From contig CAMCNU010000008.1 of the NCBI GenBank assembly GCA_945876385.1, positions 1-64,000 of the forward strand: a DNA stretch of 64,000 bases, in the 5' to 3' direction. Position numbers and translations under genes: made by a program. This stretch comes from an uncultured Veillonellaceae bacterium. GTDB taxonomy: Bacteria > Bacillota > Negativicutes > Veillonellales > Negativicoccaceae. Below, in pieces: positions 19,248-22,670 of the stretch. Each line of letters begins with the position of its first letter. Position 1 is the stretch's first letter. The notes under the pieces were generated by a model that saw only the letters and a list, made by a program, of their open reading frames with translations, did no database searches and had not been told where the DNA came from.

Positions 19248-19339
19248 GGAGAGGTGTCCGAGCTGGCCGAAGGAGCCTGACTCGAAATCAGGTAGGCGGC
19301 AACCCCGTCTCGTGGGTTCGAATCCCACCCTCTCCGCCA
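19248..19339 (+). tRNA. tRNA-Ser (anticodon CGA)
   Basis: 92 bases including CCA. The acceptor stem GGAGAGG pairs with CCTCTCC (19329-19335), followed by discriminator G and encoded CCA. The anticodon stem CCTGA/TCAGG encloses CTCGAAA, giving CGA, which reads UCG. A long variable arm marks a class II tRNA, and the T loop TTCGAAT is present. The 3' flank opens into a prophage remnant, a common tRNA-adjacent location. Confidence 0.95.
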
Positions 19340-19405: not shown

Positions 19406-19531
19406 CTGTTGCCCGCCGGGTTCATATATGTCACCTTATGTTGTCTATGCTTGCCCTATTTCCACGGCGTTTCAGCACTATTGTCCGCTTCCGTTTTCAT
19501 ACTTGTCCAGATAGCGATGATATATCGCGCC

Positions 19532-19942
19532 TTATCCTATTACTTCTATGTCGCCGGCAATTTTCCCGTTTCGCTTGTTTTTCGGCGGCCACTCCCGCCG
19601 GTGTCGGTCTTGTTCTTTTACGCCTGCAATGCGAAAAAGGCAATCAAAAAAGACGCCTAAGCGTCTTAATAGGTCGAGGTCGTCTATCAATTCACAACGG
19701 GGTAGGTCAATTCGCATGTAGCACCCGTCGCGGCGCAACACTTCCCCCATCGGAACGTCAATCAGCTCCTGGCGTATTTCAATCTCCGCCCGGCAATCCG
19801 CCAATAGATAGCGCTCGCCCGCGCCGGTAACGTACAACTTCCCACGTTCAACGGGAATCGTTTTTACTACTCGTTCAATCGTGTCTCCTTTCTTGCACAC
19901 AAAAACCGCCTTGACTTCCGTCTTGGCGGTTTTATGCTTCAA
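19532..19942 (-). CDS. Unknown phage-derived small protein
   Basis: 136 residues from a TTG start, with the reading frame overlapping the end of the 70-residue gene. The N-terminus KHKTAKTEVKAVFVCKKGD has a degenerate second copy at 21167-21212 outside the toxin-like gene. The body (IPVERGKLYVTGAGERYLLADC) looks beta-rich. I do not recognise a family. It may be a head-region phage protein or a displaced immunity gene. Confidence 0.45.
   Translation of the reverse strand: MKHKTAKTEVKAVFVCKKGDTIERVVKTIPVERGKLYVTGAGERYLLADCRAEIEIRQELIDVPMGEVLRRDGCYMRIDLPRCELIDDLDLLRRLGVFFDCLFRIAGVKEQDRHRREWPPKNKRNGKIAGDIEVIG
19890..19936. repeat. Imperfect direct repeat, copy 1
   Basis: Contains AAAAACCGCCTTGACTTCCG followed by a GGCGGTTTTATG arm. 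It matches copy 2 at 21167-21212 with a few substitutions and small indels. The outer arms can pair as an 8-bp hairpin. It is part of the coding start of the 136-residue ORF on the minus strand. Confidence 0.7.
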
Positions 19943-20144
19943 TACCCAACTTCTTTAACGCTTCTCCCTCGGAAATTTCTTTGTACATTCCAAACTCAGG
20001 GCTATCCGGCCATAAGTACCCTATCATGATTGTACTTTCTACCCATTTACCCTCTTCAAATTCATAACATTTTCGGCCTTCACGACGTACAAGTTCTCCA
20101 CGATGCCGTCGGTCTGTTAATTCCACATATTGAATCGATTTCAT
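19932..20144 (-). CDS. Small protein, candidate immunity partner of the MuF/RelA-like toxin
   Basis: 70 residues: MKSIQYVELTDRRHRGELV, then GRKCYEFEEGKWVESTIMIGY and a Glu/Lys-rich end. No family recognised. The ATG at 20144 has GAGGAGGTG seven bases upstream, the best ribosome-binding site in this cassette, and is separated from the toxin-like gene stop by only one base. Position directly after a polymorphic toxin C-terminus is where immunity genes usually lie; that is inference only. Confidence 0.55.
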   Translation of the reverse strand: MKSIQYVELTDRRHRGELVRREGRKCYEFEEGKWVESTIMIGYLWPDSPEFGMYKEISEGEALKKLGIEA

Positions 20145-20145
20145 C

Positions 20146-21025
20146 TTACACCTCCTCGATATCATCTGGCGGATTTAACCCCTCCGCTAGGCAAAACCTG
20201 TCACTTTGAATCTTTTTCGCTTCTGGTGATGCTTTTTCGAGCACGCGCCATTTTTCATATAGCACATGAATTTTTTCTTTCATTTCTAGGCTTTCCGGCG
20301 TGTGATACTGCAACTCAAACCGTTGTCCGGTCGGTGCTTTTACGACCGTGTTGATGACATTATATGGATTCAATGTATCCAGCCAGAAGTTATTTACTTC
20401 TATTGTCTCATATCCCAACGCCGCTAAACCTTTTATTACACGCTTTAGTTTCGATACCAGCGTATCGCCACCTGTAACCATGGTATATCGCACGATGTCG
20501 CTTGACCGGTAATCGGTTTGCCCGTTTTCATAGCGGTTTTGAATTTTTCGCATGTACGATTCTTTACCCTTAATGCGAAAATCCCACCCGGCTAGCTCCA
20601 TTTGATTATCTGCGCTTACCTTTTTAACAACACCCGATATCAACGGCTCATTGTCCACTGCTCGATTATAATATACCATACTGCGCCGCTTTGCTTGAAG
20701 CCATTCGTCATCTTTCGGCTTGACGTATTTCGCTTTCCATTCTTCGTACGTCATATTCTCTACGCGTACCCGCATTGACGCATTCTCAAGCGCGCGGATA
20801 TGCGCCGCGTCGAGGTCTAGGCGTTTCGCCTCCTTGATGTAATCGGCGAGCGTCATCTGAAACTCGGCCGGTTCGCGCCGGTCGAGAATTTCGCGCGCCC
20901 GCGCAAGGCTCACATCATTCTCGGCGGCGAACCTGTCGTACCGGCGCTCAACGTCGGCGCGGACTCTAGCGGCATGCTGTCCGCATCCATTTTTATGCCG
21001 GCGGCATGCTATTGCCGCACCGCGT
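20146..21025 (-). pseudogene. Truncated MuF-type phage head protein with RelA/SpoT-like C-terminal domain
   Basis: The open frame runs from a stop at 21025 to 20146; the best internal start is GTG at 20913 (255 residues). Residues before and after it (ERRYDRFAAENDV, then SLARAREILDRREPAEFQ and MTLADYIKEA) match the N-terminal region of SPP1 gp7/MuF minor head proteins, whose earlier part is missing. After a linker (MTYEEWKAKYV) comes a domain with RIKGKESY (113-120), DIVRYT (139-144), YNVINTVV (184-191) and FELQYHT (199-205), which follows the order of RelA/SpoT synthetase motifs including the E.Q pair. MuF proteins are known carriers of polymorphic toxins. Activity is unproven. Confidence 0.6.
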
Positions 21026-21060: not shown

Positions 21061-21166
21061 CTATTGCCGTGCTAACGCTACCGTTCTCGCCGGGGGTGCA
21101 CGAGCCTGTCCCCTTCCTACCCCTTTTGACGTTCGCCCCTTTACCGACATAGGTCTGCCGCCATTT

Positions 21167-21212
21167 TCTTGCCAAGCAAAAACCGCCTTGACTTTCGTCT
21201 CGGCGGTTTATG
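21167..21212. repeat. Imperfect direct repeat, copy 2
   Basis: AAAAACCGCCTTGACTTTCG followed by TCTCGGCGGTTTATG, the partner of 19890-19936, 1.28 kb away. In one minus-strand frame it codes KTAETKVKAVFAWQENGG, clearly related to the KTAKTEVKAVFVCKKGD start of the 136-residue ORF, so the two copies look like duplicated 5' ends of the same phage gene. Confidence 0.65.
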
Positions 21213-21277
21213 TTCTGACATCCACCTATACAGGCAACATATGAGATTCTTTGGTGTTGATTTTGCAGCTGTCTTTC

Positions 21278-22600
21278 TCACGCAAAATGCGCGCGTGCTT
21301 TCGGCAAGAATGCCGTAAGGATGACGGATTCCAAGAGGTAAGTCCCCACATAGGTCAGCCAGAGGCCGTCATTCCCCCAGCGCGCCGTGAGACAGAGGTC
21401 GCCCAGCACAAAGACGGCGACCGCAATCAGCATCATATTGCGAATCGATGCCGTCTCGCCGATGCCCGTATACATGCCGTAGAGTACGAGCCCGACGGGC
21501 GCGCAGAGCGGATAGGCGATGAGTGCCCAGCGGTATTGATGGGCCAGCGCCATGATGTGGGAGAGGTCCGTCATCAACGCAATCCACACGTCCCCCGTCA
21601 GGGCCATCACGATGGCCGTCAGTCCCATGTAGACCGCCGCCGTATGCAGGCCGACGGTCAGCGTACGCCGCCATAGTGTGACATCACTCCGTCCGCGTGC
21701 CATGCCCGTAAAGACGCTCATGCCGTTGGCGATACCGTCGGCAAGATACGCCATGATAAAAATAATCTCCAACAGCACCGCATTCGCCGCCAGCACGTCT
21801 GTCCCGAGACGACTGCCGGTCTGCGCAAACAAGTTATTGATAGCGAGCAGGCAGAGCGTACGAATCATCAGATCGGCATTGACCTTGATGATATCGACGT
21901 ACGCGGATGCGCGCGAGAGTTGTCGCCGGACGAGCGCTGAGAGGCGCAGGCTTGCACGGACGCGCCAGATGGCGGCAATCCCCGCCGCACAGCCGCAGGC
22001 TTGCGCTATCAGGTACGCCGCCGCCACCCCGACGATGTTCCACCCCCAGCCGTAGACAAAGAGAACGGCCAGTACGATATTCAGCACGTTCGTCGAGATT
22101 TGGATGGCGACATTGGTGCGCACATGCATTTGCCCCATGAGCCACCCGAGTAATACATAGTTTCCCAACACAAAGGGCGCGCCCCATATTTGCCAGTCGC
22201 AATAGATTTTCATCAAGCGGACGACGTCGTCTCCCGGATTCATAAATGCCGCATAATAGTCAAACAGCCACGGGTAGATTCCCCACACACCCGCGCTGAT
22301 AAGAAGTGCGAGCAGCGCCGGACGCAGCAGCGCGACGGTCGAGTCTTCCGAATTGTGCCGCCCGCATGCCTGCGCGGCAAAGGTTGTCGTCGATACCCGC
22401 AAGAAACCGAACAGCCAATAGATGCTGTTGAACAAGATGACCCCGAGCGCGACCGCGGCGATATAGCGGCCATCCTCCATGTGCCCCATCATCGCGGTAT
22501 TGACCGCACCGAGCAACGGCTGTGTCGCCGTCGAGAGCATCAGCGGCAGCGTCACCGCCAAAAACTGCCGATGTGTCAACGGTGCTGTGTGTGCTTCCAT
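21278..22600 (-). CDS. MATE family efflux transporter
   Basis: 440 residues, about twelve membrane helices. N-terminal ATQPLLGAVNTAMMGHM matches the MATE/DinF signature (LG.VDTAMVGHL), and the second half repeats the pattern. Sodium- or proton-coupled export of drugs or metabolites across the inner membrane. The ATG at 22600 has GGGGGG upstream; the longer frame is not family-like. It follows the ABC importer operon but is separated from it by a strong terminator. Confidence 0.87.
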   Translation of the reverse strand: MEAHTAPLTHRQFLAVTLPLMLSTATQPLLGAVNTAMMGHMEDGRYIAAVALGVILFNSIYWLFGFLRVSTTTFAAQACGRHNSEDSTVALLRPALLALLISAGVWGIYPWLFDYYAAFMNPGDDVVRLMKIYCDWQIWGAPFVLGNYVLLGWLMGQMHVRTNVAIQISTNVLNIVLAVLFVYGWGWNIVGVAAAYLIAQACGCAAGIAAIWRVRASLRLSALVRRQLSRASAYVDIIKVNADLMIRTLCLLAINNLFAQTGSRLGTDVLAANAVLLEIIFIMAYLADGIANGMSVFTGMARGRSDVTLWRRTLTVGLHTAAVYMGLTAIVMALTGDVWIALMTDLSHIMALAHQYRWALIAYPLCAPVGLVLYGMYTGIGETASIRNMMLIAVAVFVLGDLCLTARWGNDGLWLTYVGTYLLESVILTAFLPKARAHFA

Positions 22601-22628
22601 TTGTTCCCCCCTTATGCATGCGAGATAA

Positions 22629-22670
22629 CAAAACAACTTGCCGCGACACACCGGCCACGACAAGTTGTTT
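22629..22670 (-). terminator. Terminator of the Ni/peptide ABC operon
   Basis: 10-bp outer stem AAACAACTTG / CAAGTTGTTT with a further GC-rich inner arm, and TTTT on the minus strand. It lies between the ATPase gene and the MATE gene. Confidence 0.7.

Follow-up and report, generated by a model that had tools for sequence, protein, structure and literature searches.

Apk2 proteins, which join a MuF protein to an adenosine 3'-pyrophosphokinase, occur in prophages of S. pneumoniae, M. haemolytica, P. multocida and Bacteroides (PMC12226406). Their (p)ppApp synthetase activity, their IapK and Aph1 immunities and the name itself are already published (PMC12226406 and work cited there). Adenosine-3'-pyrophosphokinases share a syn signature of RYT (syn2), GxN (syn3) and YH (syn4), Apk2 relatives are experimentally toxic, and the specificity of an IapK protein is for the most part limited to its own partner (PMC12226406). 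RelA-like C-termini on MuF proteins were listed in 2017, and toxin delivery by MuF in the phage head was put forward as a hypothesis (PMC5576092). Where the phage is intact, the MuF body would form part of the head, and the RelA-fold C-terminal domain would pass into the infected cell and transfer pyrophosphate from ATP onto the 3'-OH of ATP or ADP, making (p)ppApp and draining ATP; IapK would block the toxin active site in the producer cell. For toxins of the type described below, we infer head delivery from that literature hypothesis and (p)ppApp as the product from characterised relatives.

The window, by which we mean the whole 64,000-nucleotide stretch analysed here, contains a short low-GC island flanked by a tRNA-Ser gene and a MATE-like transporter gene (21278-22663). 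The island holds a frame with a MuF stump and a synthetase-like domain (Table 1). Very probably, an SPP1-like prophage left it beside the tRNA-Ser gene as an orphan, an Apk2-kind MuF polymorphic-toxin cassette that is now decaying; with its phage-head domain gone, together with one active-site residue that is otherwise invariant, it is the relic of a system already known. Like Apk2, the window copy has a MuF-derived N-terminus, a RelA-fold C-terminal domain, RYT and YH, and an IapK-type gene directly downstream. Unlike Apk2, its MuF core is deleted, its native start is lost, GxN has become VxN, and aph1 is missing. The preliminary description had called a phage-head-delivered RelA-like toxin beside a small ORF a distinct combination. 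The closest annotated phage homologs belong to the Apk2 family, so the combination is already known: MuF-linked (p)ppApp synthetases are that published family (PMC12226406; PMC5576092).

Table 1. Features of the toxin-immunity locus and its surroundings in the window.
Feature	Coordinates	Strand	Remarks
Open frame, MuF stump plus Apk2tox-type (p)ppApp-synthetase-like domain	20146..21024	-	292 codons, stop to stop
MuF stump, part 1	20749..20967	-	Residues 38-106 of intact C11 MuF, 74% identity, E 5e-27
MuF stump, part 2	down to about 20687	-	C11 MuF residues 325-351, 57%, E 4e-6; fused directly, in frame
RelA/SpoT-fold toxin domain (predicted), Apk2tox type	20149..20736	-	G+C 44%; from homologs, predicted fold and motifs
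Codon 186, GTC (Val), in syn3 Y-N-V-I-N	20356..20358	-	Gly in 160/160 collected homologs
IapK-type immunity gene, 70 aa	19932..20144	-	ATG at 20144 overlaps toxin stop; Shine-Dalgarno GAGGAGGTGTAAG-ATG
Phage gene remnant	19532..19942	-	Homolog of the 130-aa gene downstream of C11 MuF; 50% identity, E 5e-30, 37-residue gap
Direct repeat A	21165..21215	.	53-bp repeat pair, 87% identical to B; interrupted palindrome
Direct repeat B	19889..19940	.	87% identical to A; interrupted palindrome AAACCGCC..GGCGGTTT
tRNA-Ser(CGA)	19248..19339	+	Adjoins phage scar

The last 196 residues of the window protein match 42 phage records, all of them MuF or head proteins, from phages of Streptococcus, Pasteurella, Mannheimia, Haemophilus and Aggregatibacter. 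Identity to the annotated phage members is 29-37%, and those of Streptococcus, Mannheimia, Pasteurella and Aggregatibacter phages show a MuF-toxin followed by a gene of about 70 aa, with an HD hydrolase in most. Profile scans yielded a set of 160 homologous loci (the best 80 of 135 from genomes and the best 80 of 259 from viral contigs) with up to 48% identity to the window toxin, a value reached by phage contigs, and the majority of the closest ones sit on MuF proteins. The nearest relative by sequence is a 74-aa fragment in genome G020 (55% identical); there is no close homolog. A scan of the viral contigs with the window toxin as a single sequence returned nothing, whereas an alignment query did find homologs. 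Pfam, NCBIfam and PADLOC gave the toxin no name above cut-off; an NCBIfam match to XopAD, far below its cut-off, was rejected as a synthetase domain in common with a much larger effector.

An AlphaFold2 model of the window protein had a mean pLDDT of 87.8, rising to about 97 over the toxin domain. Its best match in structure comparison (Foldseek, VIA-align) was SaEAS (8vx3), with Z 21.3 over 185 residues, followed by SAS1/SAS2 (Z about 13-14), Tas1 (12.9), CapRel (12.5) and then RelA/SpoT enzymes. At the sequence level, the profile matched SaEAS (E 4e-33) and Tas1 (6ox6, E 3e-9) in the PDB. The model's confidence and its matches to alarmone synthetases settle the predicted RelA/SpoT synthetase fold of the C-terminal domain. 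This bears out the RelA/SpoT-like domain proposed in the preliminary description, which had named a prediction with no such fold as grounds for abandoning the idea.

SaEAS, an exported alarmone synthetase (PMC12691689), is the closest solved structure (25% identity) and shares with the window domain a one-residue shorter loop before H-x-L-Y-E, but differs in carrying a Sec signal peptide and in lacking an immunity gene. Tas1/Apk1, a PAAR/T6SS (p)ppApp synthetase, has the same fold (26% identity) and would be expected by analogy to carry out the same chemistry; it is more distant and uses another delivery domain. The toxSAS toxins FaRel2 (Z 7.8), CapRel and PhRel resemble the window locus in fold and in the small neutraliser adjoining the toxin, but they are much more distant and not MuF-linked, and FaRel2 and CapRel modify tRNA. 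The window toxin resembles Apk2/EAS more closely than the toxin-antitoxin toxSAS to which it had at first been likened. Elsewhere in the same class, family f24 (probably Selenomonadaceae) encodes stand-alone RelA-fold synthetases in over 60 genomes searched (L034, L038, L043, L045-L050, L052, L055, L057, L059, L060). These are 24-36% identical to the window toxin and have hydrophobic, signal-peptide-like N-termini; they appear to be EAS-type alarmone synthetases that are exported.

The N-terminal part of the protein is a damaged SPP1-gp7/MuF minor head protein. PHROGs assigned the product to head morphogenesis/minor head proteins (phrog_7625, 2e-21; phrog_2841, 1e-13), confirming the remnant that had been described as cut off; the damage, though, had been understated. 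The same genome carries, on contig C11, an SPP1-like prophage region with small terminase, large terminase, portal, MuF, small genes, scaffold and capsid genes. Its MuF (L019, 10295-11935) has 546 aa with Phage_Mu_F at residues 196-301, and its C-terminus shows a weak Prok-JAB-like match below cut-off (E 0.0015). Compared with this protein, the window protein lacks residues 107-324, an in-frame deletion of 218 residues that removes the whole Phage_Mu_F domain, and also residues 1-37 with the native start. A MuF-core profile did not match the window protein, and of the Phage_Mu_F (PF04233) N-terminal domain expected of an Apk2 only flanking MuF pieces are left. Since the core is absent, the protein is a derived remnant of an Apk2 and not an intact member. 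An in-frame junction arises by chance one time in three and is therefore no sign of selection. Without the Phage_Mu_F domain, the head delivery envisaged in the preliminary description is not available to the window copy, whose active site also carries Gly186Val and which we infer to be inactive or impaired and no longer deliverable. A candidate portal-gene fragment upstream of the stump (DADSMPLES) was discarded as not significant (tblastn E 0.26).

The motifs RIKGKESYMRK, DIVRYT, YNVINTVV and FELQ follow one another in the window toxin as their counterparts do in RelA/SpoT synthetases. The earlier reading of (p)ppGpp-synthetase motifs thus held for RIK, DIVRYT and FELQ, but its 'YN.INTVV' hid a Gly-to-Val change in what is Y-x-G-x-N in the family. 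The affected residue, 186, is the first position of the syn3 GxN motif, so that the signature in this copy comprises RYT (syn2), VxN (syn3) and YH (syn4); the codon is one base away from GGC (Gly), and the 74-aa fragment of G020 reads YNGINT here. The scan patterns behind the 160-locus collection did not use position 186. Measured against those homologs, the toxin keeps 20 of 21 near-invariant columns, including K115, K123, D139, R142-Y143-T144, N175, Y184, N188, F199-E200, Q202 and H204, and the catalytic D139, R142, E200 and Q202 are intact. In a leave-one-out comparison of these columns across 161 sequences, 140 deviated at none, 18 at one and 3 at two. Close variants of the window syn3 stretch were sought in viral contigs, and none were found. 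Gly186Val probably impairs the active site of the window copy; Val186 could also be tolerated, or be a sequencing error. The intact frame and the columns kept are more than would be expected of an old pseudogene, which counts against the relic reading, as do the 18 other homologs that likewise deviate at one column.

The same intactness bears on a second possibility, that the locus is a functional stand-alone toxin-antitoxin of the toxSAS type, serving as a host or abortive-infection module, in which a MuF-less protein made from an internal start is checked by the 70-aa protein. The undamaged frame and catalytic residues, the overlap of the two genes, the strong Shine-Dalgarno of the immunity gene and the recurrence of MuF-less toxin-immunity pairs in Clostridium/Lacrimispora chromosomes (L063, L065, L067, L077) would fit such a module. 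The toxin now stands alone, as a toxSAS does, though only through deletion of the MuF core. Against a working module, Val186 occupies an invariant glycine position, a good Shine-Dalgarno or clear ribosome-binding site is absent at every remaining in-frame start (the first start codon in the frame is GTG 20913, giving 255 aa), a promoter search gave nothing above chance, and PADLOC had no match. We regard a working module of this type as very unlikely.

MuF-less short toxins were also observed as a group in Clostridium/Lacrimispora-type chromosomes (additionally L070, L075, L084 and L086), most with an immunity ORF, and several share a basic N-terminal stretch. Two are remnants similar to the window locus, each with a toxin and its immunity gene: L063 adjoins an integrase, and L077 has the same linker as the window. 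In a Lachnospiraceae MAG (L094), the same toxin-immunity pair lies downstream of other toxin-like genes recalling LXG-type loci; type VII toxin loci may thus be a further vehicle for the cassette.

Judged by its sequence, the 70-aa gene is the cognate IapK-type immunity gene of the toxin. We used an IapK profile built up from phage-borne toxin neighbours of the characterised IapK type, in which the window protein was never included; the 70-aa protein scored 64.9 bits (E 2e-19), compared with at most 11.5 for 2,000 shuffles, upholding the suggestion that this gene is a small cognate partner. Pairwise BLAST against one pneumococcal IapK gave no match, whereas the profile search did. The protein keeps all near-invariant columns and is 39-47% identical to many immunity proteins adjoining the closest toxins; of the 160 collected toxins, 131 have an IapK-like ORF no more than 1.2 kb away, nearly always touching or overlapping. 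The locus lacks aph1, the other immunity gene usually present; a phage gene remnant follows the immunity gene instead, and the sole Aph1 match elsewhere in the genome falls in a 751-residue open frame taken for an ordinary Rel. Many close homologs also lack aph1, which is thus no strict mark of an Apk2.

Among 380 genomes of the class, the IapK-type family was found only in the window genome and G020. In the latter (L010, contig C29, 792-1980), apparent orphan polymorphic-toxin ends and immunity ORFs form an array, in which the 74-aa toxin fragment is followed by a whole IapK-like ORF (1753-1980). Such a pairing, together with an intact IapK gene with its own strong Shine-Dalgarno next to a damaged toxin, would also be expected if the toxin were dead and the immunity gene had been kept as protection from incoming phages carrying Apk2. 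We think this unlikely: IapK proteins are mostly partner-specific (PMC12226406), and the arrangement is seen in two genomes only. That the scar actually works as a defence gene against Apk2 phages, its immunity half kept while the toxin half lost its head domain and was disabled by the change at the invariant syn3 glycine, seems quite unlikely. In the decaying Apk2-kind cassette that we favour, the immunity gene is most likely the only part still able to matter, if anything does.

Consistent with an exchangeable module, base composition breaks between the MuF stump and the toxin-immunity cassette, with G+C (third positions in brackets) of 60% (71%) in the MuF stump, 44% (46%) in the toxin and 41% (34%) in the immunity gene. 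Up to about residue 340, the MuF proteins of C11 and of a related genome, G001, share 97-100% identity; past that point they are unrelated. The window module supplies a third C-terminus behind the same DMTYKEWKAKYV-type linker. The MuF polymorphic-toxin pattern, a conserved body (C11, G001 and the 74% identical window stump) with exchangeable C-terminal toxins, is thus present, and near-identical MuF bodies with other C-termini, carried by an intact prophage in the window genome and by one in G001, make toxin swapping evident. By eye, the C-terminus of the G001 MuF (L009) reads like an ADP-ribosyltransferase. These findings also bear on whether the C-terminal region is a mere structural extension of a head protein, as phage annotation as a head protein might suggest. 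The synthetase fold and its Z of 21.3 to a solved alarmone synthetase, the unrelated C-termini on near-identical bodies, the G+C break, the cognate immunity gene and the experimental toxicity of relatives (PMC12226406) exclude this in practice.

Repeats A and B bracket the toxin-immunity cassette, and their hairpin has no further occurrence in the genome. A partial and weaker repeat copy of 27 bp sits just behind the immunity gene of the C11 prophage. In our interpretation, the upstream repeat copy marks where an earlier cassette ended. The tRNA-Ser(CGA) gene is possibly the former phage attachment site; a search for a second att copy for this site found none. After a second tRNA-Ser gene (GGA; L020, contig C3, 4998-5458) comes an 88% copy of the window stretch 19452-19674, part of which also occurs ahead of the scaffold gene in the C11 prophage. 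With copies after two tRNA-Ser genes, both carry scars of the same phage region.

The window locus leaves the understanding of the Apk2 system itself unchanged, the system being already known; what it adds is a decayed member, from a genome that appears to belong to the Negativicutes, and a case of an orphaned module. It thereby widens the known range of the MuF/Apk2 system of toxin and immunity to this apparent Negativicutes host, reveals closely related MuF bodies with three different C-termini within one bacterial family, and provides a natural example of MuF toxin modules decaying to orphan toxin-immunity scars.
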